Source of the DNA: Flavobacteriales bacterium
GTDB lineage: Bacteria; Bacteroidota; Bacteroidia; Flavobacteriales; Schleiferiaceae
Length of the DNA: 64,000 nt
Reading direction: 5' to 3'
NCBI GenBank assembly: GCA_017795025.1
Contig: CP051243.1
Coordinates: 1,989,501-2,053,500 of the forward strand
Every line of letters begins with the position of its first letter. Positions within the stretch are counted from its first letter, which is position 1. The translations under genes and the position numbers were made by a program. Under the pieces are notes generated by a model that did not search any database, was not told the DNA's origin, and saw only the letters and a program-made list of their open reading frames with translations. Shown in pieces: positions 403-45,140 of this stretch.

Positions 403-1095
403 TTAACTGCTCAAAACATTAGCAAGTTCATACTGCACTAAAAATAGGCGCTGATCCTTCCCCATAAGCTCCGTAAACTCATTATGCCTAAAATCCCTTA
501 AACCGGGCTTTTTTTCAAAAGCTTCTATTTTACCTAAGTGAAAAGAAGTGCCCGTCCAAAGCAAAGCCATTTTATGGAGGGCGCTGGGCCAATCTTTACG
601 ATCTTCCAATTCGCGTACGACTAAAAAGTCGATCAATCGACCTGCAGCATTAAGCCAGGCCTGACCAGCATCAGCTTCAAAAGCAAAGTAATTCCCTTTT
701 ATGGCAGGAATGGGGAAACTCAATTTTAAAAAGGCATCTAAATCGGGGCCGTCAAAATAGTCGCTGCGCCTTTCGGCAGATACGTAGTACACCGGATTTA
801 AACTTAAAGGCAGTTTACTCGGCCGTAACTGGTTGCCCGCATTCTTTACATAGTCCTTTTTGAAGATATCGAAGTGATAGAGATCGTTAACCGACAATTC
901 TTTGTTTAGCAAGTCATCGGTGGAAATACCAAAATGCTTAGCAATTTCAATCAGCGTTGCAATTTTTGGTTCCGCCCTTCCCTCTTCATAAGCACCAATA
1001 CTGGCGCGCTTCAATTCAAATAAATCTGCAAACTGACTCTGGTTCAAGTTTTTAACAGACCTTATCTTCTTGATGTTCTTTCCTACGTATGACAT
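403..1095 (-). CDS. XRE-family regulator with degenerate S24-like C-terminal domain
   Basis: 230 residues. Residues about 6-62 form a Cro/CI helix-turn-helix (NLNQSQFADLFELKRASIGAYE), with the usual conserved Q-F-A and E-E-G-R-A-E-P positions. Residues about 95-228 follow the pattern of Bacteroidota S24/LexA-type repressors: a YVSAERR segment, then a proline-rich LSFPIPAI strand, then YFAFEADAGQAWL where a peptidase would have AFEvxGDSM. The catalytic Ser position appears to be Gln, so self-cleavage is unlikely; that is inference from motif alignment by eye. It is divergent from the PspA/flotillin/polyamine operon, with an 81-bp gap carrying inverted and direct repeats, and is the natural candidate for the operon's regulator. 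It could instead be an unrelated sensor regulator. Confidence 0.75.
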   Translation of the reverse strand: MSYVGKNIKKIRSVKNLNQSQFADLFELKRASIGAYEEGRAEPKIATLIEIAKHFGISTDDLLNKELSVNDLYHFDIFKKDYVKNAGNQLRPSKLPLSLNPVYYVSAERRSDYFDGPDLDAFLKLSFPIPAIKGNYFAFEADAGQAWLNAAGRLIDFLVVRELEDRKDWPSALHKMALLWTGTSFHLGKIEAFEKKPGLRDFRHNEFTELMGKDQRLFLVQYELANVLSS

Positions 1096-1176: not shown

Positions 1177-1281
1177 ATGAAAAGTGTGCTCTTCTACTTA
1201 AAAAGCCTTTTTGCCCCGCGGAAAAATCCTAATTTGCTGCCTATCTATGCTAAGCAAGAATCGCATAAAATCAAATTCTAG
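1177..1281 (+). CDS. Small ORF leading the PspA operon
   Basis: 34 codons from ATG 1177 to TAG 1279-1281, five bases before the YbjN-like gene. The peptide is basic with a hydrophobic N-terminal stretch (MKSVLFYLKSLFAPRKNPN), no Cys and no recognised domain. It starts directly after the candidate operators. Placement and spacing favour a translated leader or small membrane-associated protein, but chance ORFs of this length are common. Function unknown. Confidence 0.35.
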   Translation: MKSVLFYLKSLFAPRKNPNLLPIYAKQESHKIKF

Positions 1282-1286
1282 AAACC

Positions 1287-1682
1287 ATGACCCAACATTT
1301 TGATCGTGTAAAAAATTACCTCATTGACTTGGATTACAACATCACCTACGAAAGCGCTGAAGAAGAGGTTTTCGTAGTCGAAAATCCCGATGCTGGCATC
1401 CACAACCTGGTAATCGCTATCGCCGATCCGATCCTCATCATGGAGCAATATCTATTCGAATTGCGAGAGGGCAAACCCGAAGTTTTCCAAAAGCTTTTGG
1501 TTAAAAACCGCGACATCGTTCACGGTGCTTTTGCCCTTGATGAGTCGGGTAAGAAAGTGGTGTTTCGGGACACCTTACAATTGGAAAACATTGACCTGAA
1601 CGAGATCGAAGGCTCGGTTAACTCCCTCGAACTACTCCTCAGTGAGTATTCTGATGAATTAATTGAATTTTCTAAAAACTAA
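1287..1682 (+). CDS. YbjN-like / type III chaperone-fold protein
   Basis: 131 residues, acidic, no signal peptide or membrane segment. It fits the small alpha/beta YbjN / secretion-chaperone-like fold: an N-terminal helix (DRVKNYLIDLDYN), a beta-hairpin with VFVVENPDAGIHNLVIAIADPILIM, and a C-terminal helix ending SLELLLSEYSDELIEF. In proteobacterial PspA (YjfJ) operons a small cytosolic protein of comparable size, YjfI, occupies the same position. It probably acts in the cytosol as a partner or chaperone of the PspA homologue encoded 3 bases downstream. The family call rests on pattern and context, not a search. Confidence 0.6.
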   Translation: MTQHFDRVKNYLIDLDYNITYESAEEEVFVVENPDAGIHNLVIAIADPILIMEQYLFELREGKPEVFQKLLVKNRDIVHGAFALDESGKKVVFRDTLQLENIDLNEIEGSVNSLELLLSEYSDELIEFSKN

Positions 1683-1685
1683 GAC

Positions 1686-2408
1686 ATGAGTATTTTCAAA
1701 CGCATCTTTAGCATTGGCAAAGCCGAAGCTAATTCGGCCCTCGATAAATTAGAGGATCCCATTAAAATGACCGAACAGGGCATTCGAAACCTTAAAGAGG
1801 ACCTCGACAAAGCCCTGCAATCCTTAGCCGAAATTAAAGCCTTAAGCATTCGCGCTCGCAACGACGCCAATACTTATCAGGCGAAAGCCAAGGACTACGA
1901 AAACAAAGCCATGGCTCTTTTACGTCGCGCCGAAAGTGGGGAGATGGAAGCCGCCGAGGCCGACCGTTTAGCCGGTGAAGCCCTCAACAAGAAAAAGGAA
2001 AACGAAAGCTTGATGAACCAGGCCAAAACCGATAAGCAAAAATTTGATGGCAACATCGATTCGATGGAAAGCAAGATTAAACGCTTACGCCAGCAAATTA
2101 GTCAGTACGAGAACGAACTTAAAACCCTCAAAGCCCGGGTTAAGGTGAGTTCCGCTACTAAGAACATCAATAAGCAAATGGCGCAGATTGATTCCTCCAG
2201 CACCGTTAGCATGCTCGAACGCATGAAAGACAAAGTTGCCGAGGAAGAAGCATTAGCCGAAAGCTATGGCGACATTGCCAACGAAAGCCGCAGTTTAGAC
2301 GATGAGATTGATCGGGCATTGCAGGACGACACTCCCGCCAGTGACGAGCTCGCCGCTCTAAAAGCGAAAATGGGCTTAAACAAAAACGAAAACAAAGATT
2401 CCGAATAG
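1686..2408 (+). CDS. pspA: PspA/IM30 (YjfJ-like) membrane-stress protein
   Basis: 240 residues, close to usual family length. The N-terminus (MSIFKRIFSIGKAEANSALD) is the amphipathic membrane-binding helix, followed by the conserved LEDPIKMTEQGIRNL segment. Residues about 25-200 are one long Ala/Glu/Lys-rich coiled coil, as in ESCRT-III-like PspA/Vipp1 proteins. The C-terminal third contains the short acidic helices typical of YjfJ-type members. These proteins polymerise on the inner face of the cytoplasmic membrane under envelope stress. No pspF, pspB or pspC is nearby, so regulation differs from the enterobacterial Psp system; the divergent XRE protein is the likely regulator. Confidence 0.9.
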   Translation: MSIFKRIFSIGKAEANSALDKLEDPIKMTEQGIRNLKEDLDKALQSLAEIKALSIRARNDANTYQAKAKDYENKAMALLRRAESGEMEAAEADRLAGEALNKKKENESLMNQAKTDKQKFDGNIDSMESKIKRLRQQISQYENELKTLKARVKVSSATKNINKQMAQIDSSSTVSMLERMKDKVAEEEALAESYGDIANESRSLDDEIDRALQDDTPASDELAALKAKMGLNKNENKDSE

Positions 2409-2425
2409 AATCAGAATAATCTGCC

Positions 2426-3073
2426 ATGAGCGACTTCATACACCTCATATTTAATGGAGCTAATGCCGTACCCACGGCATTACTCCTCTTTGTGGTCCTG
2501 TATTGGATCATCGTTATCTTCGGCTTTATCGGGAGCGATTTCCTGGATATCGATATCGACGTGGATGCCGATGGTGACGCCGACCTCGACCTCGATGGTG
2601 AGGGTGTTGAAGTCTCCTGGATTAACAATGTGCTGCAATTTTTTAACCTCGGGAAAATCCCCCTAATGATTTGGCTCACCTTTGTAGCGCTTCCCCTTTG
2701 GGTGATGGCTATAAACTTTAATGCCTTACTGGGATTCAGCGGCTTTTTCGCCGGCCTGATTGTATTTTTCCCCGCCGCCTTTGTTAGTCTATTCCTAGCC
2801 AAATTCCTCACCTGGCCTTTTGTGAAGATGTTCGAAAAATTGGACGCCGACACCAAAGCCAAGGAAATTATCGGCCGGGTTGGTACGGTAACCAGTTCTG
2901 CCACCGCTAGCAGTAGGGGTATGGCCGAAATAAACTACGATGGTTCCTTTTTGCGAATGATGATTCGGTGTTCCGAAAATCAAAGCGTGAAAAAGGGCGA
3001 TCAGGTGCTCTTCATCCGAAAGCTCAACGACCGAGGCGTGTACTTGGTCGAGCCTTATACGTCAATCGATTAA
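2426..3073 (+). CDS. YqiJ/NfeD-like membrane protein with OB-fold and Asp-rich loop
   Basis: 215 residues. One membrane segment at about 13-33 (ALLLFVVLYWIIVIFGFIG) is followed by an acidic loop at about 36-58 with repeated DxD (DIDIDVDADGDADLDLDGEG). Two further hydrophobic segments (about 75-140) and a C-terminal OB-like beta domain (IIGRVGTVTSS...GDQVLFIRKL, about 150-210) complete the YqiJ/YuaF architecture. In E. coli and Bacillus such proteins pair with flotillin-family partners, and here the flotillin gene starts 15 bases downstream. It probably anchors or regulates the flotillin assembly. The acidic loop, likely on the outer face, could bind divalent cations or polyamines; that part is inference. 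Confidence 0.8.
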   Translation: MSDFIHLIFNGANAVPTALLLFVVLYWIIVIFGFIGSDFLDIDIDVDADGDADLDLDGEGVEVSWINNVLQFFNLGKIPLMIWLTFVALPLWVMAINFNALLGFSGFFAGLIVFFPAAFVSLFLAKFLTWPFVKMFEKLDADTKAKEIIGRVGTVTSSATASSRGMAEINYDGSFLRMMIRCSENQSVKKGDQVLFIRKLNDRGVYLVEPYTSID

Positions 3074-3088
3074 TCCAAAATTCACTCC

Positions 3089-5260
3089 ATGGAAATTTTC
3101 CAAAACACTATGGTGACCTCGGTCATCGTTGCGGTGGTGCTCATCTTCGGGATCATCGCCCTTTTCTCCAAATTCTACTATAAAGCCTCCCAAGGTCAGG
3201 CCCTGGTTCGAACCGGTGTAGGCGGAATTAAAGTCTCCTTTAATGGCTTGATGGTGATTCCGGTTTTACACAAGATCGAAATCATGGACATCTCCCTCAA
3301 CACGATTAACATCGAACGGAAGGGAAAGGATGGCCTGGTTTGTAAGGACAATCTGCGGGCCGACATTAGCGTAGCCTTTTACGTGCGGGTAAATGAAATG
3401 CAGGAAGACGTAAAACGAGTAGCCCAGTCGGTAGGTTGCAGCCGTGCCTCTTCTAAAGATGCCTTGCGCTTACTCTTCGATGCCAAATTCTCGGAAGCCC
3501 TGAAGACCGTAGGTAAGAAATTCGAGTTCGTTGACTTATACAATCAGCGAGATGAATTCCGTAAAGAAATCATCGACATCATCGGCACCGACCTTAATGG
3601 TTATATTCTTGATGATGCGGCGATTGACTTCCTGGAGCAAACCCCACTCGAGTCTTTAGACCCCAATAACATCCTCGACGCTGAGGGTATTAAAAAGATC
3701 ACTGAAATCACTTCTCGCGAAGCGGTGAAATCCAACTTTATCCAAAGAGATAAGGAGAAAACCATTAAGCAACAAGACGTGGAGGCCCGTGAAGCCATCT
3801 TAGTTTTGGAGCGTCAGTTGGCCGAATCGGAAGAAAAGCAAAAACGCGAAGTAGCCAATGTTAAGGCCCGTGAGGAAGCGGAAATTGCCCGGGTAAATGA
3901 AGAAGAGCGTCTTAAGTCGGAACGCGCCCGCATTCAAACCGAAGAAGAACTGCAGGTAGCGGAAGAGAACAAACTTCGTCAGGTTATCGTTGCCGCCAAA
4001 AACAAGGAGCGCACCGACGCGGTAGAAACGGAGCGTGTGGAAAAAGACCGCATGTTAGAAGCTACCGAAAGAGAGCGCATTGTAACCCTCACGCAAATTG
4101 AGAAGGAAAAAGCGATTGAGGAAGAGCGCAAGAACATTCAAGAGGTAATTCGCGAGCGGGTGGCCATTGAGAAAACCGTGGTGGATGAAGAAGAGCGCAT
4201 TAAAGATACGCGTGCTTACGCTGAGGCCGAACGTTTGAAGAAAGTAGCCCTTACCGAGGCCGAGCAGCGTGCCGAAGCCGCCTTGGTTGAGCAAATTAAA
4301 CGAGCCGAAGCCGCTAAACAAGCCGCCGAGTTCGAAGCCAAGAAGAAAATTATTGACGCTGAGGCCGAGCAGCAAAGCGCGGCTCAAAAAGCCGAAGCGG
4401 TGAAAACACTGGCCGAAGCAGAGGCCGCCAGAGAGGCCGCCAAAGGAATGGCCGAAGCGCAGGTAATGGAAGCCAAAGCAGCGGCCCGCGAGAAACAAGG
4501 GGAAGCCGAAGCCAGCGTGCTGGAAGACCAGGCTCTTGCCGAAGCGAAAGGCATCGAAGCGAAGTCTAATGCACAGGCCGAAGCCGATCTGCGCATTGGT
4601 AAAGCAGCGGCCGATGTTGACAAAGCCAAAGGATTAGCCGAAGCGGAGGTGATTCAGAAGAAAGCCGCGGCCGAAAAGGAAAAAGGATTGGCCGATGCGC
4701 AAATCCTCTTCGAAAAAGCGCAGGCCGAAGCCGAAGGTATCGACCGCAAGGCCAAAGCCATGAAGACCTTTAACGACGCCGGTAAAGAGCACGAAGAATT
4801 TAAACTTCGCTTAGATAAAGATCTGCAAGTTGAATTGGCCGGCATCAATATCCAACGCGACATTGCCGATGCTCAAGCAGAGGTATTATCCGAAGCGCTT
4901 AAAAACGCTAAAATCGACATCGTAGGTGGCGAGCAGGTATTCTTCGATAAGATTATGGGCGCCATCACCCAAGGGAAAGCAATGGACCGCACCGTACACA
5001 ACAGCGAAATCTTTAGTGAAATTAAAGGTCAGTTACTAGACCCCAATGGTAAACCCCTTTTACAACAAGTAAAGGAGATTTTCGCCGAATCGGGAATCGA
5101 CAGTGAGGATGTTCGCAACCTCAGCGTAGCGGTATTCCTAAACCGATTGATGCAAAAAACGGAGGACCCCGTAAAACGCAGCAACCTGGAGCAAATGCTC
5201 CAATTAGCAAAGAGCTCCGGTATTGGTAACAATTCGGTGCAAGACCTTGGAATTCTGTAA
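3089..5260 (+). CDS. Flotillin / SPFH (Band 7) protein, YqiK type
   Basis: 723 residues. An N-terminal membrane anchor (about 8-30, VTSVIVAVVLIFGIIALF) precedes an SPFH/Band 7 domain (about 32-230: QALVRTGVGG, ADISVAFYVRV, the LLFDAKFSEALKTVGKKFEF helix). Residues about 230-580 form a very long Ala/Glu/Lys-rich helix with repeated AEA/EAKA motifs, no proline and almost no aromatic residues. The C-terminal domain (about 585-723) contains the flotillin-type KIDIVGGEQVFFDKI motif. It should oligomerise into membrane scaffolds. The coiled coil is longer than in ordinary flotillins and matches the YqiK class. A hairpin separates it from the downstream ATPase gene. Confidence 0.9.
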   Translation: MEIFQNTMVTSVIVAVVLIFGIIALFSKFYYKASQGQALVRTGVGGIKVSFNGLMVIPVLHKIEIMDISLNTINIERKGKDGLVCKDNLRADISVAFYVRVNEMQEDVKRVAQSVGCSRASSKDALRLLFDAKFSEALKTVGKKFEFVDLYNQRDEFRKEIIDIIGTDLNGYILDDAAIDFLEQTPLESLDPNNILDAEGIKKITEITSREAVKSNFIQRDKEKTIKQQDVEAREAILVLERQLAESEEKQKREVANVKAREEAEIARVNEEERLKSERARIQTEEELQVAEENKLRQVIVAAKNKERTDAVETERVEKDRMLEATERERIVTLTQIEKEKAIEEERKNIQEVIRERVAIEKTVVDEEERIKDTRAYAEAERLKKVALTEAEQRAEAALVEQIKRAEAAKQAAEFEAKKKIIDAEAEQQSAAQKAEAVKTLAEAEAAREAAKGMAEAQVMEAKAAAREKQGEAEASVLEDQALAEAKGIEAKSNAQAEADLRIGKAAADVDKAKGLAEAEVIQKKAAAEKEKGLADAQILFEKAQAEAEGIDRKAKAMKTFNDAGKEHEEFKLRLDKDLQVELAGINIQRDIADAQAEVLSEALKNAKIDIVGGEQVFFDKIMGAITQGKAMDRTVHNSEIFSEIKGQLLDPNGKPLLQQVKEIFAESGIDSEDVRNLSVAVFLNRLMQKTEDPVKRSNLEQMLQLAKSSGIGNNSVQDLGIL

Positions 5261-5276
5261 TTAACACTAGAACCTC

Positions 5277-5309
5277 GGGGAGCTGAGCCTCACTTGGCTC
5301 CCCAATTTT
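5277..5309 (+). terminator. Intra-operon terminator or attenuator hairpin
   Basis: GGGGAGC (5277-5283) pairs perfectly with GCTCCCC (5297-5303) around a 13-nt loop, followed by AATTTT. It sits in the 55-nt gap between the flotillin and ATPase genes, the largest gap in an otherwise very tight operon. It could terminate a fraction of transcripts so the scaffold genes outnumber the giant ATPase, or stabilise the upstream mRNA 3' end. Confidence 0.5.
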
Positions 5310-5315
5310 CGCCAC

Positions 5316-8300
5316 ATGCCTGAAGACAAACCAACATCTGAAGCCCCCCAAAGCCAGCTCGAATCGGGTAGCTACGGTATAATCCGCGAGCGCCTGCAAA
5401 AGCAAGCCCAAGACCTCCAGCAACGGATTAACAATCTAAACCAAGAACGCCGGACTGTATTTGGTGCTACCGAAACGAAGCTAATTGCAAACGAGCGGAT
5501 TAGCACCGAAAATAACTGCTTTGCCCGCGACATTGCTCCGGTTGGTCAGGATTACTTTTGGTTTGGCTACAATGTGCAAATCGGCCTTAAAGCCGAAACC
5601 AAGGTGGCCGATGTATTTAGTGTTTACCATTACGACCGCAAGGAACATCGATTCCAAAGCACCGAAACCAAAGCCTTTCAAAACGAGCAATTTCAGCTCG
5701 ACTTTCAAAACCTATATCAGTATTATCGCGATACCCGATTTAGCAAATTTGCCCTCATCGGACCGCATTTATTTATGGTTTTCCAGGTGGGCAAAACCCC
5801 CGAAGACCTAAAGACCTTTAAGTGGACCCTTAAAAATGGGGTATACGTGTACGTTGATAATCGCAGCGACCACGAGTTTCGTTACCCCGACCAACATGAA
5901 TTCCGCTGGATAAAGGCCAATCGCGATATGCATCGCAAAGGGCTCCACCCCCATATCTCCATTGAGGACCGCATCTTCGTTGAAACGATTGGCGGGGATC
6001 TCACCCTAAAGGTGGAAGACAATACCCAAACCGGAAAAGGCATTTACAGCGAGCCTGTGGAAGAAGCCGATCAAACTTTAGACGATGCGGAAATCTACTA
6101 TGCGATTGTTGGCAATTTCATTATCCTCCGCATCCAACCTTACCAAGAAGAGCAGTTTCGCTACTTGGTATTTAACGAAAAAATTCAGCAGGTAAAGCGC
6201 ATCGACGCCATTAAGGACTCTTGCGTGCTTTTACCCGAAGATCAAGGTTTAATATTCGCCAAAGGCTATTACAGTCAGCGCGGAGAAGTAAAGTTGTTCG
6301 ATAACGACTTGCAGAATATGCAATTCGAAAAACGCATTATCTCTCCCAATGGCGAAGATGTGCTTTATATCTTTTACCAGGCCGAGAGTGGCACCTACGC
6401 CCTAATGCGCTACAACCTAATTGAGCAGGAAGTAGGCACCCCCATTATTTGCAATGGCTACAGCTTGTTCGAAGATGGTGAATTGATTTACTTCCGCTCC
6501 GAGGCGGAACAAACCAAGCATCACCTCATCCAAATTTGGCAAACCCCTTTTTACTCACCCAACCGGCAAGTAAAGGTGACCGAGCAAAACTATATCGCCA
6601 AAATTGGCAATAAGGAAATTGTGCGAGCCATGGCTGAGGCACGAGACTTATTAAAACTGCTTTATCAGGAAGATAGTTACCAAGGCCTGTATAACGACAT
6701 CACCAAAAAAAGCAGCGACCTCCTCGATAGCTACCACTGGCTCGATGCGGAGGAAACCTTTCAAATGCAAGCCCCGCTTTTAGAAATTCGGCAAACGGCC
6801 AAAAGCGCCATCGACGAGTTTGAAAAAGTGATGCAATTAAAGAAGGAAAGCCGTAAGGAGTTTTCCGCTTTCGCAGAGGCCACTAAAAGTCAGCTACGCG
6901 CCCTAAAGGCCGGATTAGGCAACCATATCGATGCCTATGTAAAGCGAATGGCCGAATTACGTCAGAGCCGCGGGCGTGTGTTACAATTGCAGGAACTCCC
7001 CTATATCGATTTAGAAGGACTGCAATCTCTAGAGCAAGAGCTGATTGAAGCCAGCGAAAAGCTTGCCCGGGAAACCGGTGACTTTTTGGTGAAGGAAAAA
7101 GCCTTAGCCCCTTACCGGGAAAAACTAGAAAGCCTAGAGCAAAACTTGGATCGCATTAAAAAGTCGATTGAAGCCAAAAAACTAGAAGAAGAAAGCTTGC
7201 AGCTTGCGCAAGAGCTGGAGATGCTTATCGAAACCGTGAGTAACCTGCAAATTGAGGATACCACGCAAAGCACCGCCATCATTGACCGGATTAGCGGCAT
7301 TTACGCTGAATTTAATCAGCTTAAAGCGCGTACGAAACAAAAACGCAAAGAGCTCGCCCAAAATGAAGGTGCTTCGGAGTTTAAAGCACAAATACGCCTA
7401 GTTGACCAAAGTTTGAGTAATTACCTCGACTTGGCCGATGAGCCTGAGAAATGCGATACCTACCTCAATAAGCTAATGATTCAACTGGAAGAGCTGGAGA
7501 GTCGTTTTTCCGAATCGGCAGCGTTTATCGATCAGATTGCGGCTTTACGCGACCAGATTTACAACACCTTCGAAAGTCGAAAGATTCAACTCAAGGAAGC
7601 GAAAAACCGTAAAGCCCTGCAGTTATTAGATTCGGGGAAACGCATTTTGGAAGGTATTCGCCGCCGCCTCTTTCATATGGATCAGGTGGAAGACATCCAA
7701 ACCTATTACGCTTCGGACTTCATGGTGCTAAAGCTGCGTGATCAGGCGAAAAGCCTCTTAGCCTTAGGCGAATCGGTAAAAGCCGACGACCTTGAAAGTC
7801 AGCTAAAATCGAGCTATGAAGAAGCCCTTCGACAGTTAAAGGATAAAAAGGAGCTGTATGCCGATGGCGATAAACTTATCCAATTGGGTAAGCACCGCTT
7901 TAGCATCAACCACCAAGATATTGACCTTTCCCTGGTGGAGCGAAACGACGACCTCTACCTCCACGTGAACGGCACCGGTTTTTTCGAAAAAATTGAAAAC
8001 GCTGAGCTGGAAGCCTGCCGCCCCATTTGGAATCAAAATGCCCGTTCGGAAAACGATTCGGTTTACCGAGCGGAATACTTGGCCTATGCCTTATTTCAGA
8101 AAGGTTTAAATGCCGAAGCTGGTCTGGACCTACAGGACTGGCGCGGTTTAAGCTCGCAGGAAATTTTAGGCTTGGTTCAAAGCGAAATGTCACAACGCTT
8201 TCACGAATCCTATGTAAAAGGTGTTCATGATGAAGATGCCGCCAAAATTTTGGAGTCGCTGATTGCCATTCACTACAAACTTGGCCCGCTGCGTTACAGC

Positions 8301-10250
8301 GCAAAAGGTCGATTATGGGCCTTGTACACTTGGGACCATCTTTGGGATGCTGAGCTTAAAAAGGCACTTAAAACCGAATTTGCCCATATTCAAAGTATCC
8401 TGCAGTTTTTCCCAAATAGCCGCAGCTTCCAAAGCAGCCGGGAGACCCTCGCCAAGCGTCTTGAAGCAGCCGTGGAAGTAAAAGACCTGTTAGACAGCGG
8501 AGCCGAAGATTTAGAAGATGCGGTAAGTTTCTTATTCGATTGGCTAAGTGGTCGCCATACCCTAAGCTTCCGACAAGAAGCCCGCGAACTCTGTGTAGCC
8601 CTTGAACAGCATCTTAAAACCAGTCAGGCCCACAAGGAGTTTGAACAAGCCCGAAAAGTCTTAAAAGAGGAAAATTGGGAAGGGAGAATCCAAAGAATTC
8701 AAGCTTGGCTAAAAGCCTATACCGAAACTTTGCCTCAGCCAGTAGAGCCCTCCCTAATTCTGGAAGCCAGCTACCTGCTTAAATTGAATAAGCTCGAACA
8801 AGAGCAAGGTCACATCCTGCAAAGTAGCGCTCAAATTGAGGGACTGCGCGGTGATCATCCACGTATTGAGCAAGGTAAAATGCAATTGGATTACCTCGAA
8901 TTTTTAGAGCGACTAAAAGCCTTCGAAAAAGTTGAAGTTCCCTTGTACGATAAATTCCAGGCTTTAAAAAAGCGCTTACTCGAAGTGGAGCGACGCGAGA
9001 TGGGCCTACAGGAGTTTAAACCCCGTATCATGAGCTCCTTTGTGCGCAATGAACTTTTAAACCAGGTATACCTCCCCCTGATTGGCGATAATTTAGCCAA
9101 GCAAATTGGGGCGGCTGGCAACGAAAAGCGTACCGACCTGATGGGCATGTTATTGCTAATTTCCCCTCCGGGTTACGGTAAAACCACCCTGATGGAATAC
9201 ATCGCCGCCCGCTTGGGTTTGGTGTTTATGAAAATTAACGGTCCGGCCCTGGGTCATTCCGTAACCAGCGTAGACCCTGCCAGCGCCCCCAATGCGGGAG
9301 CTCGCGAGGAATTGCATAAGCTTAATTTGGCCTTTGAGATGGGCGACAATGTGATGATCTATGTAGATGACATTCAGCATTGTAATCCGGAATTTCTTCA
9401 AAAATTCATTTCCCTTTGTGATGCTCAGCGTAAAATTGAAGGAGTGTATAAAGGTGAAAGTAAAACCTACGATTTCCGAGGAAAGAAGGTAGCCGTAATT
9501 ATGGCCGGTAACCCTTACACCGAGAGTGGGGATAAATTTCAGATCCCCGACATGCTGGCCAACCGTGCGGACATTTACAATTTAGGAGACATCATTGGCG
9601 GTAAAGCGGAGAGCTTTGAGCTTAGCTACATTGAAAACGCTTTAAGTAGTAATAAACACCTGTCTATTTTAAGCGATAAACCCAAAGAAGATTTAAAGAG
9701 CTTTTTACGCGCCATCGCCAATAACAGTCCGGAAGACCTCAACCTGAAGGCCAATTATAGCGCAGCAGAAAAAGGAGATTTACTGCAAATCCTGCAACAC
9801 AGTTACCGCATTCGCGAAGTGGTTCTTAAGGTGAATAAACAGTATATTCTATCCGCCGGTATGGCCGATTCCTACCGAACAGAACCCGCATTTAAGCTGC
9901 AAGGTTCCTATCGCGATATGAACAAACTCTGCGAAAAGCTCTCACCCTTAATGAATGAGGCGGAGCTGGAGCAAATCTTGCTTTCGCATTATGAGAACGA
10001 ATCGCAAACCTTAACCCAAGGCGCCGAATTTAATTTCTTGCGCTTAAAGCAGATGCTGGACCGCCTAAGCCCAGAGGAAGCAAGCCGTTTGGAAGAAATT
10101 CGCAGGGTTTTCCAAAAGCAACAGGAAGCTAAGGGCTATGGCAGCAATCAAGTGGCTCCTATTGTGGAACGCTTAGAAAAGATGGGCATTGGCCTGCAGG
10201 AGCTGGTCCGCATATTTGGCAATCAATCTAATAACAACGAAAACGCATAA
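5316..10250 (+). CDS. Giant AAA ATPase, DUF3686 ('DNA repair ATPase') family
   Basis: 1644 residues. An N-terminal coiled coil (about 20-55) precedes a beta-rich region (about 60-430) with repeated YxYDR/FRY strands, possibly propeller-like. Several long coiled coils follow (about 500-840), then helical domains and a C-terminal AAA module. Walker A is PPGYGKTT with Lys1289; Walker B is MIYVDD with Asp1351 and Asp1352; a sensor-like VIMAGNPYTE follows. This matches the family annotated as DNA-repair ATPase (DUF3686 plus AAA). That name is historical; genomic association with PspA, flotillin and DUF350 points to a membrane-stress or remodelling motor. No membrane segment is visible, so recruitment by the flotillin or PspA is likely. 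ATG start is 55 nt after the flotillin stop. Confidence 0.85.
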   Translation: MPEDKPTSEAPQSQLESGSYGIIRERLQKQAQDLQQRINNLNQERRTVFGATETKLIANERISTENNCFARDIAPVGQDYFWFGYNVQIGLKAETKVADVFSVYHYDRKEHRFQSTETKAFQNEQFQLDFQNLYQYYRDTRFSKFALIGPHLFMVFQVGKTPEDLKTFKWTLKNGVYVYVDNRSDHEFRYPDQHEFRWIKANRDMHRKGLHPHISIEDRIFVETIGGDLTLKVEDNTQTGKGIYSEPVEEADQTLDDAEIYYAIVGNFIILRIQPYQEEQFRYLVFNEKIQQVKRIDAIKDSCVLLPEDQGLIFAKGYYSQRGEVKLFDNDLQNMQFEKRIISPNGEDVLYIFYQAESGTYALMRYNLIEQEVGTPIICNGYSLFEDGELIYFRSEAEQTKHHLIQIWQTPFYSPNRQVKVTEQNYIAKIGNKEIVRAMAEARDLLKLLYQEDSYQGLYNDITKKSSDLLDSYHWLDAEETFQMQAPLLEIRQTAKSAIDEFEKVMQLKKESRKEFSAFAEATKSQLRALKAGLGNHIDAYVKRMAELRQSRGRVLQLQELPYIDLEGLQSLEQELIEASEKLARETGDFLVKEKALAPYREKLESLEQNLDRIKKSIEAKKLEEESLQLAQELEMLIETVSNLQIEDTTQSTAIIDRISGIYAEFNQLKARTKQKRKELAQNEGASEFKAQIRLVDQSLSNYLDLADEPEKCDTYLNKLMIQLEELESRFSESAAFIDQIAALRDQIYNTFESRKIQLKEAKNRKALQLLDSGKRILEGIRRRLFHMDQVEDIQTYYASDFMVLKLRDQAKSLLALGESVKADDLESQLKSSYEEALRQLKDKKELYADGDKLIQLGKHRFSINHQDIDLSLVERNDDLYLHVNGTGFFEKIENAELEACRPIWNQNARSENDSVYRAEYLAYALFQKGLNAEAGLDLQDWRGLSSQEILGLVQSEMSQRFHESYVKGVHDEDAAKILESLIAIHYKLGPLRYSAKGRLWALYTWDHLWDAELKKALKTEFAHIQSILQFFPNSRSFQSSRETLAKRLEAAVEVKDLLDSGAEDLEDAVSFLFDWLSGRHTLSFRQEARELCVALEQHLKTSQAHKEFEQARKVLKEENWEGRIQRIQAWLKAYTETLPQPVEPSLILEASYLLKLNKLEQEQGHILQSSAQIEGLRGDHPRIEQGKMQLDYLEFLERLKAFEKVEVPLYDKFQALKKRLLEVERREMGLQEFKPRIMSSFVRNELLNQVYLPLIGDNLAKQIGAAGNEKRTDLMGMLLLISPPGYGKTTLMEYIAARLGLVFMKINGPALGHSVTSVDPASAPNAGAREELHKLNLAFEMGDNVMIYVDDIQHCNPEFLQKFISLCDAQRKIEGVYKGESKTYDFRGKKVAVIMAGNPYTESGDKFQIPDMLANRADIYNLGDIIGGKAESFELSYIENALSSNKHLSILSDKPKEDLKSFLRAIANNSPEDLNLKANYSAAEKGDLLQILQHSYRIREVVLKVNKQYILSAGMADSYRTEPAFKLQGSYRDMNKLCEKLSPLMNEAELEQILLSHYENESQTLTQGAEFNFLRLKQMLDRLSPEEASRLEEIRRVFQKQQEAKGYGSNQVAPIVERLEKMGIGLQELVRIFGNQSNNNENA

Positions 10251-10252
10251 GG

Positions 10253-10798
10253 ATGAGCTTTTTTAAAAACCTATTTGGCAAAAAGGAAGAACCTAAACCC
10301 TTTAGCCGCACCGTATTGGATTTAGATCAAGGATTTATTTTCGAATACGACCTGAGTACCTGGGAAGTACAAGCGGTATACGAGTACGATTGGGGCGATG
10401 AAGAATTTAGCAAGGAGTTTAAAGTAAGTGATGGCAAAGACACTTATTACCTTGCGGTGGAAGAAGACGATACCATTGAAATGCTTTGGTCGCAAAAAAT
10501 ACCCTTGCGGGCTATTGAAGGAAATATCGCGAAAGAAATAGAAGAAAATGAACGCCCTCCGGAGCAAATTGTGTATGATGCCAAAACCTATTACTTGGAT
10601 GAGGAGAGCGCCGGATACTTCCACGAACAAGGAAGCGATGAGGATAATTGGGCCGAGTTTATGGTTTGGGATTATTACGATAAAAAGGAGGCTTTTAATA
10701 TCAGCATAGAACAATGGGGGCCCCGCTCCTTTGAGGCCTCGCACGGAAAAGTACTTCAGCAACACGAGATATCAGAAATTCTACCCCGAAAATTATGA
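10253..10798 (+). CDS. DUF4178 domain protein
   Basis: 181 residues, acidic, cytosolic. After a basic N-terminal segment (MSFFKNLFGKKEEPKPF), the body has the DUF4178 pattern: DLSTWEVQAVYEYDW, then YYLAVEEDD, and a second half with WDYYDKKEAFNISIEQWG followed by FEASHG. DUF4178 proteins are repeatedly found beside DUF350, SpeD and spermidine-synthase genes; no biochemical activity is established. It starts two bases after the ATPase stop and overlaps the next gene by ATGA, so translation is probably coupled. A role as adaptor between ATPase and membrane components is a guess. Confidence 0.75.
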   Translation: MSFFKNLFGKKEEPKPFSRTVLDLDQGFIFEYDLSTWEVQAVYEYDWGDEEFSKEFKVSDGKDTYYLAVEEDDTIEMLWSQKIPLRAIEGNIAKEIEENERPPEQIVYDAKTYYLDEESAGYFHEQGSDEDNWAEFMVWDYYDKKEAFNISIEQWGPRSFEASHGKVLQQHEISEILPRKL

Positions 10799-11559
10799 CT
10801 ATGAAAAACAGCTATCGATTTCTAATCCTCGGCACTCTGGCCTTGCTCATGCAGGCTTGCAGCCCGAGAGGACCGGTTTTTCAAAAGAATCCGGTAGATG
10901 ACTTAATCAAGGACATGACGAGCATTCCCGATTACAGCATCATCCTTTACGATATGAATTACGATGAGGCCTCGGAGCAGTACCAACATCAGTACCGCAT
11001 CCTTAAGGAGCCTCAGGGAGCCGACTCCATCCTCACCGAAACCACAGGATGGCTGCAAGTGAGCCCAGAATACTTCAATGAACATATTGAGGATATGGGC
11101 ATGACAATCGTTTCGAAAACTAATGGTACGGTGGACAAAAAAGTGAGTCCGCCCGGCTACAATCAATATGTAGGCAATGAAAAATACGGACAATGGCGCC
11201 AAAACTCAGATGGCACCAGCTTTTGGGAATTTTACGGACAGTATGCCTTCCTCCGCTCTGTTTTGGGTTTTGGCTACTCTCCTATTTACTACGGGGGTTG
11301 GTACGATTACCGTCGGAACTATTACCCGAGCGGACGCGCCTATTACGGAAATGGCCGTAACGGCGGACGACGCTTCGGAACCGGCGGAAGCCACGTTAAC
11401 AGCCGCAGCACCGCATCAACCTGGTCCAGCAAAGACCAAAGCTTCAAAAACCGAGTACGCAGTAGAGTCCAGCGAAGCAGCAGCAGAACCCGCCGCTCCA
11501 GCTCGCGCTACCGCAGTGGATCAAGTAGTAGAGGCCGCGGATTTGGCGGAGGTAAATAA
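10795..11559 (+). CDS. Lipoprotein with Arg/Ser/Gly-rich basic tail
   Basis: 254 residues. The ATGA overlap with the DUF4178 gene supports ATG 10795; ATG 10801 gives a slightly shorter signal. Signal peptide FLILGTLALLMQAC gives a lipobox Cys near residue 22. The middle (about 35-165) is a mixed soluble domain with FWEFYGQYAFLR. Residues about 170-254 are dominated by Tyr, Gly, Arg and Ser, with many RS/SR dipeptides and a terminal FGGGK. The DUF1190 lipoproteins YgiB and YjfM, which occur with DUF350 and PspA homologues in enterobacteria, also end in Gly/Ser/Arg-rich tails, so this may be the functional equivalent. The tail could bind polyanions such as LPS phosphates. Function unknown. Confidence 0.7.
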   Translation: MTMKNSYRFLILGTLALLMQACSPRGPVFQKNPVDDLIKDMTSIPDYSIILYDMNYDEASEQYQHQYRILKEPQGADSILTETTGWLQVSPEYFNEHIEDMGMTIVSKTNGTVDKKVSPPGYNQYVGNEKYGQWRQNSDGTSFWEFYGQYAFLRSVLGFGYSPIYYGGWYDYRRNYYPSGRAYYGNGRNGGRRFGTGGSHVNSRSTASTWSSKDQSFKNRVRSRVQRSSSRTRRSSSRYRSGSSSRGRGFGGGK

Positions 11560-11576
11560 TCTAAAGAAAAAGGATC

Positions 11577-12458
11577 ATGACAACAGAATTAGTAAGCAAC
11601 GAATGGATGAACGATCTTCTTCTCTTTGGCACTTATTTGGCCAGTTCCCTCATTCTCCTATACCTTGGTAAATGGATCTTTAAGCTCACCAAAACCGGTA
11701 TTGAAACCGAAGTTGAGCTCGTAGAAAAGGACAATCTAGCCTTTAGCTTCGCCTATGCGGGATACTTTGCCGGCTTGTTAATGGCGGTGGGCTCGGCTAT
11801 TTATGGCGATTCCAATGGACTGCTGGTGGACTTGGAAGACATGGCTGTTTATGGCCTATTGGCTATCGTTCTGCTCAATTTATCTTCCATCATTATCGAT
11901 AAAATTACCCTCCGCCATTTTTCCATTTGGAAGGAAATTACCGTTGATCGCAATATTGGCATGGGGATTATTGAGGGGGCTAATTACTTGGCCTCAGGAT
12001 TAATCATTTTTGGCGCCGTAACTGGCGAAAGTGGGAACTTGGTTTTTGGCATTTATACCGCCATTGCCTATTGGGTACTGGGTCAAGTATTGATTATTCT
12101 CGCCACTGCGATATACGATCGATTAACCCCCTATTCCCTGCATAAAGAAATTGAAAAGGATAATAATGCCGCAGGAGTAGCCTTCGCGGGATTGATTATT
12201 GCTGTGGCCAATTTAATTCGTCATGGCCTAATGGGTGACTTCGAAACCTGGCCCGAAACCTTAACGGAAGTGGGCTACGAAACAGGAATCGGCCTACTTA
12301 TTTTGCCTTTGATTCGCACTTTGGTTGATCGCATTTTATTACCCGGTCAAAAATTGAGCGATGAAATAGCCGCTCAGGAAAAGCCCAATGTAGGGGCTGG
12401 CTTAATTGAAGCACTAGGCTATATCGGCGGATCTGTACTTATTATTTGGTGTATCTAA
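11577..12458 (+). CDS. DUF350 (YjfL-like) membrane protein, tandem duplication
   Basis: 293 residues with about eight hydrophobic segments. Two homologous halves are visible. VEKDNLAFSFAYAGYFAGLL (about 48) matches EIEKDNNAAGVAFAGLIIA (about 194). DRNIGMGIIEGANYLASGLI (about 124) matches KPNVGAGLIEALGYIGGSVL at the C-terminus. Each half is one DUF350 unit. E. coli YjfL is a DUF350 protein in the yjfIJKLMC cluster with a PspA homologue. It lies between the lipoprotein and aminopropyltransferase genes, one base before the latter, and is probably an inner-membrane component. Transport activity is not established. Confidence 0.85.
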   Translation: MTTELVSNEWMNDLLLFGTYLASSLILLYLGKWIFKLTKTGIETEVELVEKDNLAFSFAYAGYFAGLLMAVGSAIYGDSNGLLVDLEDMAVYGLLAIVLLNLSSIIIDKITLRHFSIWKEITVDRNIGMGIIEGANYLASGLIIFGAVTGESGNLVFGIYTAIAYWVLGQVLIILATAIYDRLTPYSLHKEIEKDNNAAGVAFAGLIIAVANLIRHGLMGDFETWPETLTEVGYETGIGLLILPLIRTLVDRILLPGQKLSDEIAAQEKPNVGAGLIEALGYIGGSVLIIWCI

Positions 12459-12459
12459 A

Positions 12460-14007
12460 GTGAAAAACCGCCGCTCCCCCTTTCTAAAGTTAGCCCTGTT
12501 CGCCACGGGATTATCAGGCATTGTTGCCGAATACATCCTGTCGACCCTGGCTACCTATTTCATCGGCGATTCGGCCGTGCAATGGTCCCTCATTGTATCG
12601 GTGATGTTATTCTCGATGGGATTGGGTTCGCGGCTCAGTAAGTACTTTGAAGGAAATTTATTACTGAAGTTCATCGGGGTGGAGTTTGCATTAAGTCTTT
12701 TGGTTTCCTTCTCCTCGCTGGTAGCCTATTCGGCCGCCGGTTTAACCGAATACGTGGGAATCATCATCTACGGAATGAGCATCCTCATTGGACTGCTCAT
12801 TGGTTTAGAAATCCCCTTGGTCATTCGCCTCAATGAAGAATTCGAAAGCCTTAAGGTGAATGTAGCTTCGGTAATGGAAAAAGATTACCTCGGCTCTTTG
12901 GTGGGTGGTTTGTTCTTTGCTTTTGTTTGCCTACCGATATTAGGCTTAACCTACACCCCCTTTATTTTGGGATTCATCAATTTAATGGTTGCAGTAGGCC
13001 TGTTTCTTACCGTAAGACGCGAATTGCAAAAACGGGCAAACGGAGGCATCACCATCGCCTCCGGACTTATTTTGCTCTGTATGTTTTTTGGAATTACGAA
13101 GGCCGAGAACATCATTTTATTTGGGGAGCAAAGTCGTTATAAGGACAAAGTGATTTTTTCGGAGCAGAGTAAATATCAAAAGATTGTGATTACCCAATGG
13201 AAAGACCATTATTGGCTTTACTTAAATGGTAATCAGCAATTAAGCACTTTAGACGAAGACAAATATCACGAGGCATTGGTCCATCCTGCCGTGGCTTTAA
13301 GTGGACAAGTGAAAAACGTTTTGGTAATGGGTGGCGGTGATGGTTGCGCAGCGAGGGAACTCCTTAAATACCCCAACATTGAGCAAATTACCGTGGTTGA
13401 TTTAGACTCGATGATGACTGGTCTGGCCAAGCGACATCCGGTTTTAACCGAGCTTAACGACTCGGCCTTTCACCACCCCAAGGTAACAGTTCAAAATGCC
13501 GATGCCTTTAACTGGTTAGAGCAAGCCCCTGGCTTATTTGATCTGATCATTGTGGATTTACCCGACCCCCGTTCGGTAGAGTTAAACCGGATGTACACAG
13601 CCGAATTTTACAGTTTATGCCATTTAAAATTGCGTCCGCATGGCAGCCTGGTTACCCAGGCCGGAAGCCCGTATTTTGCCACCAAGGCCTTTCGCTGTAT
13701 AGATACGACTATGGCCTCCGCGGGCTTCGAAACCTTGCCCCTGCACAATCATGTAATTACCCTTGGAGAATGGGGTTGGGTATTAGGTCAGAAGCAAGAT
13801 TGGAGCCAAGGACAGCTTAAGGAAAGGGCTCGCAAGCTAGATTTCAAGGGCGTAGAAACACAATGGCTAAATGCGGAAGCCATGCTAATGATGACGGCTT
13901 TTGGCAAGGATATTTATTTTAAAGTAGAAGATAGCATCGCGGTGAACCACATTCAAAATCCGGTGCTTTACCGCTATTACTTGAAAGGAAATTGGGATTT
14001 GTATTAA
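12460..14007 (+). CDS. speE: Membrane-fused spermidine-synthase-like aminopropyltransferase
   Basis: 515 residues, GTG start one base after the DUF350 stop. Residues about 8-215 hold about seven membrane segments; about 225-510 is a spermidine-synthase fold. Visible motifs: YHEALVHPAV, MGGGDGCAARELLKYP (nucleotide-binding loop, Gly291-Asp294), VVDLD for the co-substrate ribose, and DLPDP with the putative catalytic Asp366, then MYTAEFY. It should transfer an aminopropyl group from decarboxylated AdoMet to an amine, producing methylthioadenosine. SpeD is encoded immediately downstream. The acceptor may be putrescine or a membrane-associated amine; the fused membrane domain argues for an acceptor at or across the inner membrane. 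No ODC or agmatine-pathway gene is in the window. Confidence 0.85.
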   Translation: MKNRRSPFLKLALFATGLSGIVAEYILSTLATYFIGDSAVQWSLIVSVMLFSMGLGSRLSKYFEGNLLLKFIGVEFALSLLVSFSSLVAYSAAGLTEYVGIIIYGMSILIGLLIGLEIPLVIRLNEEFESLKVNVASVMEKDYLGSLVGGLFFAFVCLPILGLTYTPFILGFINLMVAVGLFLTVRRELQKRANGGITIASGLILLCMFFGITKAENIILFGEQSRYKDKVIFSEQSKYQKIVITQWKDHYWLYLNGNQQLSTLDEDKYHEALVHPAVALSGQVKNVLVMGGGDGCAARELLKYPNIEQITVVDLDSMMTGLAKRHPVLTELNDSAFHHPKVTVQNADAFNWLEQAPGLFDLIIVDLPDPRSVELNRMYTAEFYSLCHLKLRPHGSLVTQAGSPYFATKAFRCIDTTMASAGFETLPLHNHVITLGEWGWVLGQKQDWSQGQLKERARKLDFKGVETQWLNAEAMLMMTAFGKDIYFKVEDSIAVNHIQNPVLYRYYLKGNWDLY

Positions 14008-14008
14008 A

Positions 14009-14329
14009 ATGGAAAAAACACGGATTTACAATCTTCGAATGTGGCTCCAATTAACGGATGAGTCTGCGATTGCCCCTGCTTTAGAAAAGGCCCTGCGAGA
14101 GTCAGGATACGGCATTGTGGGCTTTTGTGAACATCATTTTAGTCCGCAGGGCTACACTTGCACTTGGCTCCTAAGTGAGAGTCATTGTGCCTTACACACC
14201 TTCCCCGAAGAAGGTCGATCCTACATTGAACTAAGCGGCTGTTCCAAAGAAAAAAGTGCCGCCTTTACCCATACCATTTTAAGCCTTTGGAAAGATTATA
14301 TTAGCGATTCAGAACAATCGAATTGCTAG
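14009..14329 (+). CDS. speD: S-adenosylmethionine decarboxylase proenzyme, minimal form
   Basis: 106 residues, shorter than most bacterial AdoMetDC (about 115-140). The pyruvoyl processing site is intact: Glu57-Ser58 in LLSESHCALHTFPE, with Ser58 expected to become the pyruvoyl group. His63 (processing) and Cys78 in ELSGCS (proton donor) are in the expected positions. It makes decarboxylated AdoMet for the aminopropyltransferase whose stop is one base upstream of this ATG. The ATG of the next gene follows the TAG directly. The pairing implies local supply of aminopropyl donor dedicated to this operon. Confidence 0.92.
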   Translation: MEKTRIYNLRMWLQLTDESAIAPALEKALRESGYGIVGFCEHHFSPQGYTCTWLLSESHCALHTFPEEGRSYIELSGCSKEKSAAFTHTILSLWKDYISDSEQSNC

Positions 14330-15322
14330 ATGAAGTTACGCCCCCTATTTCGCCTTCTACTCCTTTTTTTCAGTTTTCAACTTAGCGCTCAGGAATATGC
14401 CTTGATTATTCATGGTGGCGCCGGAAATGGATTGGTTCCCGAGAATTACACCGAAGCGCAAACCGCTGCCTTTCACGAGGCCCTCAACAAAGCTTTGATG
14501 CGGGGCGATTCGGCCCTTGCGGCCGGCACTCCAGCGGTGGAAGTAGTGAGTTTAGTTATTCAAGTTTTGGAAAACGACAGTTTATTCAATGCCGGCAAAG
14601 GGGCGGTTTTAACCTATGAAGGTAGAGCCTCTTTAGACGCTTCCATTATGGATGGCAGCAATTTGGAAGCGGGAGCTGTAGCCGGATTATCATGCATTAA
14701 AAATCCAATCACGGCAGCCTTAGCAGTTATGCGCTACTCACCACATGTTTTACTAAGTGGCTCGGGGGCCGATAGTTATGCCCAATCTAAAGGTAGCATT
14801 TGTGTGGACCCTGCTTATTTCTTGATACCCAGTAAGGTTAAGGCCATGGATAAAATTCGGGAAGACATTCGGGTGCGCGATAGTATTCGCGATCACAAGA
14901 TGGGAACCGTTGGTTGCGTGGTACGCGATAAAGAGGGCAATATTGCGGCTGGCACTTCTACTGGGGGGATGATGGCCAAGCGTTATGGAAGGATTGGGGA
15001 TTCCCCCATTATTGGCGCGGGCACCTATGCCAATAATAAGACCGTAGGCGTAAGCTGCACCGGACATGGTGAATATTTCATCCGCAATGTGATTGCTTAT
15101 CAGCTAAGTGCTCGTTACGAGTTTTTGCAAAACAGCGGGCAGGAAGCAGCAGATTATATGATCCACACCTTACTAAGTGGTCAAAACGCTTTTGGCGGTT
15201 TAATTGGCATTGATGCGGAGGGCGAATTCTTTTACGCCTTTAATACCACCGGTATGTTACGGGGCTTTAAACGCGAAGGAGAAGCCGCCGAAACCTATAT
15301 TTTCGGATTGGAGGAAAAGTAA
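14330..15322 (+). CDS. Exported isoaspartyl peptidase / L-asparaginase (Ntn hydrolase)
   Basis: 330 residues. A signal peptide (PLFRLLLLFFSFQLSAQE) indicates export. The body is a plant-type asparaginase: ALIIHGGAG at the mature N-terminus, FNAGKGAVLTYEGRASLDASIMDG, and the autocleavage nucleophile Thr193 in HKMGTVGCVV, followed by GTSTGGMMAKRYGRIGDSP. It cleaves beta-aspartyl dipeptides and L-asparagine after self-processing. Its ATG directly follows the speD stop, making it the last gene of the operon. It may only be a co-transcribed neighbour; a link through beta-Asp-Arg cleavage feeding arginine-derived amines is conceivable but unproven. Confidence 0.9.
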   Translation: MKLRPLFRLLLLFFSFQLSAQEYALIIHGGAGNGLVPENYTEAQTAAFHEALNKALMRGDSALAAGTPAVEVVSLVIQVLENDSLFNAGKGAVLTYEGRASLDASIMDGSNLEAGAVAGLSCIKNPITAALAVMRYSPHVLLSGSGADSYAQSKGSICVDPAYFLIPSKVKAMDKIREDIRVRDSIRDHKMGTVGCVVRDKEGNIAAGTSTGGMMAKRYGRIGDSPIIGAGTYANNKTVGVSCTGHGEYFIRNVIAYQLSARYEFLQNSGQEAADYMIHTLLSGQNAFGGLIGIDAEGEFFYAFNTTGMLRGFKREGEAAETYIFGLEEK

Positions 15323-15436: not shown

Positions 15437-15511
15437 GGGCGATTAGCTCAGCTGGTTCAGAGCACCTGCCTTACAAGCAGGGGGTCACTGGTTCGAATCC
15501 AGTATCGCCCA
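15437..15511 (+). tRNA. tRNA-Val (anticodon TAC)
   Basis: Acceptor arms GGGCGAT (15437-15443) and ATCGCCC (15504-15510) pair, with discriminator A15511. The anticodon stem CCTGC/GCAGG encloses loop CTTACAA with anticodon TAC, decoding GUA. The T loop GGTTCGAATCC is canonical. The 3' CCA is not encoded (ACAAA follows). It has its own promoter and terminator and stands alone. Confidence 0.97.
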
Positions 15512-15519
15512 CAAAGATT

Positions 15520-15549
15520 AAAAGCCACACTGCAAAGTGTGGCTTTTTT
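15520..15549 (+). terminator. Rho-independent terminator of tRNA-Val
   Basis: AAAAGCCACAC pairs with GTGTGGCTTTT around a short loop and runs into six T residues. It starts 8 nt after the tRNA. The sequence AAAGATTAAAAGCCAC at its 5' edge recurs in reverse complement in every copy of the downstream repeat family. Confidence 0.9.
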
Positions 15550-15752
15550 CATTTACAGACTTTGAGCCAAGCTTGCTTGAGCGAAAAAGGATGTAAATGA
15601 AAAAAGGCCGGAGTGACCGCAGGGAACGGCGGCTTTTAATCTTTGGGTAAGAAGGCTCCCGTCCCTGGATCACGAAGTAATCCAGTTTTGGTGGATTGGT
15701 GGATTGGGGAACTGGTGAACTGGTGAAAACGTCGATGGGTTCTCTCCGCAGC

Positions 15753-16053: not shown

Positions 16054-16105
16054 AATCTTTGGGTAAGAGGGCTCCCGTTCCTGGATCACGAAGTAATCCG
16101 GTTTT

Positions 16106-45059: not shown

Positions 45060-45140
45060 TTGGGGAGGGGGGGATTGGTGGATTGGTGGATTGGTAGATT
45101 GGTGAATTGGTGGATTAGAAGATTGGTTGACTGGTGGACG
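45060..45140. repeat. Octamer minisatellite tract, second island
   Basis: About eight degenerate units of TGGATTGG (variants TAGATTGG, TGAATTGG, TTGACTGG), the same motif as at 16106-16198. It lies directly upstream of prfB. Confidence 0.8.

Follow-up and report, generated by a model that had tools for sequence, protein, structure and literature searches.

An operon joining PspA, flotillin and AAA ATPase genes to SpeD and a membrane SpeE, with a lysine-ended lipoprotein as possible aminopropyl acceptor

A 64,000-nucleotide stretch of a Flavobacteriales genome (Schleiferiaceae; GenBank assembly GCA_017795025.1, contig CP051243.1, positions 1,989,501–2,053,500), here called the window, contains 11 consecutive plus-strand genes, 1287–15322, which form one predicted operon. 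Its products may be viewed as a scaffold module (CesT, PspA, YqiJ-like protein, flotillin and AAA ATPase) joined to an aminopropyl-transfer module (DUF4178, lipoprotein, DUF350, SpeE and SpeD). We tentatively suggest that the membrane SpeE, fed by SpeD, aminopropylates the C-terminal lysine of the lipoprotein to give a protein-bound, spermidine-like tail; this we regard as a real possibility, though somewhat short of probable. The genes, and a small open reading frame (ORF) which precedes them, are:

1177–1281, plus strand: small ORF of 34 amino acids, probably a gene because a similar ORF start is present in relatives L012, L070 and L071
1287–1682, plus strand: CesT/Tir-like chaperone (CesT_Tir_1, YbjN-like; Pfam, E 3e-54)
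1686–2408, plus strand: PspA/IM30 family protein (Pfam, E 1e-42; tree)
2426–3073, plus strand: YqiJ-like membrane protein with three transmembrane (TM) helices (BLASTP to Escherichia coli YqiJ; hydropathy)
3089–5260, plus strand: flotillin/YqiK-like protein with one N-terminal TM helix (32% to E. coli YqiK, 449 residues, E 3e-53)
5316–10250, plus strand: ATPase of 1644 amino acids with N-terminal DUF3686, DUF7902 and C-terminal AAA+ (Pfam)
10253–10798, plus strand: DUF4178 protein, predicted to be cytosolic (Pfam, E 7e-23)
10795–11559, plus strand: lipoprotein with a Ser/Arg/Gly-rich tail ending SSRGRGFGGGK, the terminal Lys254 being the proposed acceptor (alignment)
11577–12458, plus strand: double-length DUF350 membrane protein (Pfam, E 1e-53; model with a predicted local distance difference test score, pLDDT, of 90)
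12460–14007, plus strand: membrane SpeE with seven TM helices and an aminopropyltransferase domain (NF002956; NCBIfam, model, fold search, topology)
14009–14329, plus strand: SpeD, a short divergent S-adenosylmethionine (AdoMet) decarboxylase (Pfam AdoMet_dc; Ser58, His63 and the catalytic Cys kept)
14330–15322, plus strand: secreted Ntn-hydrolase, asparaginase/beta-aspartyl-peptidase (Pfam Asparaginase_2, E 6e-96; synteny)

The evidence which bears most directly on the acceptor comes from the lipoprotein. Relatives' loci were found by their membrane SpeE (33 loci), and the absence of a gene from a genome is stated here on the basis of family searches. The aligned lipoproteins show a mean identity of 50%, yet the last two residues, Gly-Lys, are invariant at the end of a Ser/Arg/Gly-rich tail. 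This ending was found in 34/34 lipoproteins of SpeE loci (33 distinct, L016 and L085 being one locus), while a terminal lysine is present in 6/28 CesT, 4/31 PspA, 4/28 DUF4178 and 1/14 flotillin proteins of the same loci. It was predicted beforehand that genomes with SpeE and no lipoprotein nearby would carry one elsewhere, and that SpeE-less genomes would carry none. A profile search located the lipoprotein elsewhere in all four genomes which have this SpeE type and none nearby, and in G134; it found none in 40 sampled genomes without membrane SpeE, nor in six genomes with the other SpeE branch described below. The five additional lipoproteins, encoded away from known SpeE, all end in Gly-Lys, bringing the total to 38 of 38 distinct lipoproteins from several phyla. 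Such invariance suggests that SpeE decorates the tail and does not synthesize free polyamine.

A second branch of membrane-SpeE clusters (L072–L084) possesses SpeD (none in L083 and L084; not near SpeE in L074), a zinc-ribbon DUF4178, a short DUF350, membrane SpeE and, mostly, an amine oxidase; no Gly-Lys type lipoprotein was found in these loci. Between DUF4178 and DUF350, L072–L076 and L078–L080 encode a single-TM protein of 52–64 residues ending in His-Lys, which was recognized without any selection for lysine. A scan filtered for terminal lysine revealed a comparable small protein in L083, L084 and L099–L103, the last being alphaproteobacterial, betaproteobacterial and gemmatimonadal plasmid loci; it gave just one other hydrophobic match, in L082. 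In all, 17 of the 18 second-branch loci, some with the caveats given below, encode a small membrane protein ending in lysine. Column identity among 14 of these proteins is only 23%, and every one retains the terminal lysine; being unrelated to the lipoprotein, they represent a second type of carrier. The amine oxidases beside SpeE in this branch carry twin-arginine signals and a lipobox, which places their action outside the membrane. These clusters also include a membrane protein of 352–371 amino acids outside Pfam families.

Both presumptive enzymes retain the residues one would expect. Ser58, His63, Pro66 and the Cys of the ELSGC motif of SpeD align with S63, H68, the corresponding Pro and C83 of Thermotoga maritima AdoMet decarboxylase (AdoMetDC), whose roles, including that of the proline distinguishing AdoMetDC from arginine decarboxylase, are described in PMC10407285. 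The protein thus displays the pyruvoyl Ser, catalytic His and Cys, and marker Pro of the class 1b enzymes; its score against the Bacillus subtilis-type AdoMetDC model is 50.9 bits, below the 75.65 cut-off, and its activity is predicted from these residues. An ornithine or arginine decarboxylase was considered and rejected, the AdoMetDC-marking proline being kept and SpeE being present.

Membrane SpeE scores 570.9 bits against NF002956 (cut-off 472), a family whose equivalog label, “polyamine aminopropyltransferase,” probably overstates current knowledge. The catalytic Asp366, Asp369 and Tyr269 are invariant among 46 relatives, and the GGGDG motif is mostly so. In the AlphaFold model (pLDDT 90) the aminopropyltransferase fold is complete [Foldseek, Thermus SpeE, E 5e-16]; GGGDG, D-x-x-D-P with two Asp, YHE and the two-domain fold are all present. 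It is not a canonical soluble spermidine synthase, having seven TM helices and reaching only 132.8 of the 249.55 bits set for TIGR00417.

The number of Lys plus Arg residues in successive loops of SpeE (2.24, 0.02, 1.80, 0.02, 3.02, 0.04 and 2.93 per loop; 46 homologs) alternates strictly, and the hydrophobicity of TM7 matches that of the other helices. An inside N-terminus followed by seven helices would probably place the catalytic domain in the periplasm, on the same side as the lipoprotein tail.

SpeD is present in 17 of 19 genomes of the class with membrane SpeE versus 13 of 179 others (Fisher p 1e-14, kinship ignored). In 10 of those 13 it lies within frames of approximately 430–476 residues which also hold a SpeE domain. 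Fusions of SpeD to soluble SpeE, in frames of approximately 410–476 residues, occur in G017–G019, G022–G023, G026–G028, G048, G050, G065, G092, G139, G180 and others.

The single-contig 3.44 Mb genome has its sole SpeD and its sole SpeE homolog in this operon. Elsewhere (L044 8499–11717; G000:C1 about 2080498–2083716) there are, in a row, genes for a short SpeA-like decarboxylase, an arginase-family (SpeB-like) protein and a deoxyhypusine-synthase-family (SpeY-like) protein, which from family and gene order only are predicted to constitute a putrescine–homospermidine route. Besides the SpeA-like decarboxylase, a PF02784 search of the genome returned LysA only. Since this separate set exists, SpeD and SpeE are not the general polyamine route.

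In the mechanism which we have in mind, cytosolic SpeD would produce decarboxylated AdoMet, and membrane SpeE would move the aminopropyl group onto the side-chain amine of the terminal lysine. Because putrescine and the lysine side chain are both aminobutylamines, the product would resemble spermidine. The 7-TM part might pass the donor across the membrane or, alternatively, the lipoprotein might be modified before export. The polycationic tail could then bind anionic envelope components, with PspA, flotillin and the ATPase stabilizing or remodeling the inner membrane under the control of a divergent helix-turn-helix (HTH) protein. The acceptor, the compartment, the action of the ATPase on PspA and the trigger (envelope stress in the original prediction) are the parts of this scheme which we infer. 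A broader reading, put forward with a little more reserve, is that of a widespread extracytosolic protein modification in which a SpeD-fed membrane aminopropyltransferase acts upon dedicated tail proteins at their C-terminal lysine, as a counterpart of YjfC/YgiC spermidine ligation beside Gly-Gly tails. The carrier would be the lipoprotein here and the single-pass small protein in the second branch, where the exported amine oxidase may act next. If true, this would be a new envelope protein modification and would explain the recurrent clustering of PspA, flotillin, DUF350 and polyamine genes.

Several points weigh against aminopropylation of the terminal lysine. If SpeE is periplasmic, decarboxylated AdoMet would have to be exported, and we know of no precedent for this; the putative step is the weakest part of the model. 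Seven genomes with membrane SpeE (G007–G010, G015, G074 and G109, several of them metagenome-assembled) have no recognizable SpeD; they are possibly incomplete, or may use another donor such as AdoMet itself. A search of these genomes for class 2 AdoMetDC gave no match and was uninformative, its control giving none either. Among second-branch loci, L082 is without a small Lys-ended protein; L077, with a frame of 39 residues, and L081, where it is fused to that of DUF4178, end in His-Lys with doubtful gene starts; and L083, L084 and L099–L103, having been picked by the terminal-Lys filter, are seven weaker cases. The parallel with E. coli drawn below is positional and functional only, since comparison supported neither homology of DUF4178 to YjfK nor homology of the lipoprotein to YgiB. 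Finally, the terminal lysine could itself serve as a signal for sorting or binding. Such a role, or one in recognition, with SpeE modifying something else or making a small molecule, would agree with the frequent use of invariant C-termini for recognition and with a lipoprotein tail which is already highly basic; we consider it unlikely, given that the lipoprotein family co-occurs with membrane SpeE and is absent from the sampled genomes without it, and that lysine is the natural protein analog of putrescine.

SpeE might instead act upon another membrane acceptor, for example an aminophospholipid head group, the Lys-ended lipoprotein receiving, sensing or positioning the product. SpeE is membrane-embedded and grouped with membrane-linked DUF350, PspA and flotillin, and Ravi et al. 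(PMC11237479) leave room for aminopropylation of other substrates. This, too, seems rather unlikely, as it would leave unexplained why two unrelated carriers have an invariant terminal lysine, and no lipid-binding feature was identified. Synthesis of spermidine or thermospermine as free polyamine, to stabilize the membrane where it is made, is suggested by the NCBIfam name and by polyamine synthases being the nearest solved structures. We think it quite improbable: the genome has its separate predicted homospermidine route, and relatives in other phyla carry soluble SpeE besides membrane SpeE (elsewhere in most Latescibacterota and Gemmatimonadota genomes, often SpeD-fused). Free spermidine production is further disfavored by the constant pairing with Lys-ended tail proteins. 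Of the polyamine or aminopropyl modification at the membrane that the original prediction had put forward, the free-polyamine form has thus become less likely, and modification of a fixed acceptor is favored because of the genome's own SpeA-SpeB-SpeY set and the invariant terminal lysine.

As to the operon itself, the intergenic distances are, in order, 3, 17, 15, 55, 2, −4, 17, 1, 1 and 0 bp, and the original prediction of 11 plus-strand genes after a small ORF was borne out, the gaps ranging from −4 to 55 bp. Its families were mostly read correctly, including an aminopropyl-donor pair with intact catalytic residues in one operon with a PspA/flotillin/AAA scaffold. The final gene, taken for that of a lipoprotein, specifies instead the secreted peptidase/asparaginase, and is found at the operon end in close relatives only (synteny). 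The extent of 1177–15322 stood for these genes; the conserved divergent HTH regulator just outside it had been missed. The YqiJ-like protein gives 19.9 bits with YqiJ_N (Pfam cut-off 23) and a 22% match to E. coli YqiJ [E 3e-7]. The flotillin-like protein, for which Pfam gives no match, has the N-terminal TM helix, SPFH region and Ala/Glu-rich coiled coil like that of YqiK. Fold comparison of the DUF350 model yielded no significant match in the PDB. An anti-phage system was rejected, PADLOC giving just mad2, which matches part of the SpeE domain (residues 283–425, 63.7 bits), and a coiled-coil match.

The two halves of the operon correspond to phage-shock-protein (PSP) groups 1 and 2 of Ravi et al. 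2024 (PMC11237479), which are compared at the end. The six-gene core of group 2 recurs in Bacteroidota, Gemmatimonadota, Latescibacterota and one Thermodesulfobacteriota genome, and records of Nitrospina and Deltaproteobacteria contain portions of it; the gene set is therefore not due to chance. The core order, on whose conservation the original prediction hung, reaches far beyond close relatives and into several phyla. Group-2 operons hold or adjoin ion-channel genes in L015 (4899–6944), L021 (11912–12937) and L086 (4808–5650); TrkA_N accompanies these in L015 and L021, and L015 also has a rhomboid protease gene.

The merger around a single CesT-PspA pair is confined to close relatives. Among the loci compared, only the window, G003, G004 and G029 have the YqiJ-flotillin-AAA cassette inserted between PspA and DUF4178; in G001 (L011) the AAA gene adjoins DUF4178. 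To our knowledge both modules have not previously been described as merged around one such pair. It is somewhat unlikely, in our estimation, that the modules act independently after an accidental merger of operons, a view which fits any acceptor hypothesis. It would account for L012, where the same operon lacks the cassette though its SpeE is 80% identical, and whose genome contains no DUF3686 gene anywhere by family search; also for G005, G011 and G219, where the group-1 operon stands apart (G005 and G011 consequently holding two CesT-PspA pairs or parts thereof). Against it stand the merged layout of five genomes, with SpeE 70–84% identical to that of the window, a regulatory region common to group-1, group-2 and merged operons, and the co-occurrence of AAA and membrane SpeE beyond expectation (4/6 genomes, p 8e-4, phylogeny ignored). 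In the PspA tree L012 is nested within the merged clade (support 98/88 and 98/95; several deeper nodes are poorly supported), which suggests merger in an ancestor followed by loss of the cassette in L012.

The flanking features are:

403–1095, minus strand: divergent HTH_19 (Cro/cI-type) regulator (Pfam; upstream neighbor kept in merged, group-1 and group-2 operons)
1095–1180, no strand assigned: predicted operator/promoter region with inverted motifs GCTAA..TTGGC and ACTAA..TTAGT (81% mean column identity, six loci)
15437–15512, plus strand: tRNA-Val (the same tRNA lies 3′ of the operon in L012)
15520–15547: strong terminator-like hairpin after tRNA-Val

The HTH_19 protein is the likely regulator of the operon. 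A relative (L064 13464–14237) keeps a LexA/cI-type S24 domain which is degenerate in the window's protein, hinting at loss of autoproteolysis. The approximately 90 bp between the HTH gene and the operon are conserved across merged, group-1 and group-2 operons, and, judged by sequence, 1095–1180 is a probable operator/promoter; an Rfam search of the leader found no elements. Just past tRNA-Val (15570–16540) there is an array of 132/184-bp direct repeats with the 8-bp core TTGGTGGA. Related 8-bp repeats occur at 45072–45138, and a tandem repeat with a 66-bp unit (1.9 copies) at 60146–60268.

Among known systems the closest are the two PSP groups. Group 1 comprises CesT/Tir-PspA with YqiJ/YuaF-like, band-7/flotillin and AAA ATPase genes, and all five gene types are together in our operon; it differs in that group-2 genes follow, sharing the single CesT-PspA pair. 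Group 2 comprises CesT/Tir-PspA, DUF4178, the Ctha_1186 lipoprotein, DUF350 and a 7TM-spermine synthase fusion. All six core genes are present here, the lipoprotein being equated with Ctha_1186 by position only, and the differences are the YqiJ-flotillin-AAA genes between PspA and DUF4178 and the SpeD and peptidase genes at the end. Main-text passages of PMC11237479 do not mention the invariant terminal lysine. The operon does not belong to PSP group 3, as Pfam found no ATP-grasp glutathionylspermidine-synthetase-like gene in 1287–15322. Because both halves have been published as groups, the operon is a combination of two known membrane-stress gene sets and not a new kind, and the novelty originally claimed for it falls. 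The earlier interpretation is partly right and largely anticipated by the literature, the Lys-ended acceptor being the new point.

SpeD adjoining membrane-SpeE fusions has reportedly been noted by Li and colleagues, who are said to have proposed a non-polyamine role and no acceptor, and the fusion is said to make no spermidine in E. coli. Our operon shares with theirs a SpeD adjoining a membrane-fused spermidine-synthase-like protein; a non-polyamine substrate had thus been proposed before, and the terminal lysine now offers one specific acceptor. An invariant C-terminal lysine on two unrelated carriers, paired with membrane SpeE in the sampled genomes, makes that acceptor testable. Diatom silaffins, in which lysines of Ser/Gly/Lys-rich protein tails bear propylamine chains, provide a precedent; they differ in being eukaryotic, with many internal lysines and enzymes which are unsettled. 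The work of Li et al. 2019 (Biochem J 476:2579) is cited as ref. 89 of PMC11237479. The bacABCDEF operon of Pseudomonas aeruginosa (PMC10948618), whose co-transcription was established by reverse-transcription PCR, is also headed by CesT-like BacA and PspA-like BacB genes; it differs in having no spermidine-synthase-like gene.

The E. coli yjfIJKLMC and ygiBC clusters likewise group a CesT-like protein, PspA, DUF350, a Ser/Arg/Gly-tailed lipoprotein and a polyamine-related enzyme. YjfM, encoded beside YjfC, ends in SRGGYGRSSSARGHWGG, and YgiB, encoded beside YgiC, in SSRSMGG; both tails are Ser/Arg/Gly-rich with a Gly-Gly end. RefSeq lists both enzymes, YjfC and YgiC, as peptide-spermidine ligases (Pederick et al. 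2023, as cited in PMC10948618). DUF2491 replaces DUF4178 in these clusters and the lipoprotein ends in Gly-Gly instead of Gly-Lys. The ATP-grasp difference noted in the original prediction holds, and is better expressed as the ligase replacing SpeE, not SpeD. By analogy, this suggests that a Gly-Gly carboxylate calls for a ligase and a Gly-Lys amine for an aminopropyltransferase, YjfM and YgiB being putative ligation targets. If so, PspA/DUF350 clusters would have two unrelated ways to place polyamine upon a lipoprotein tail.

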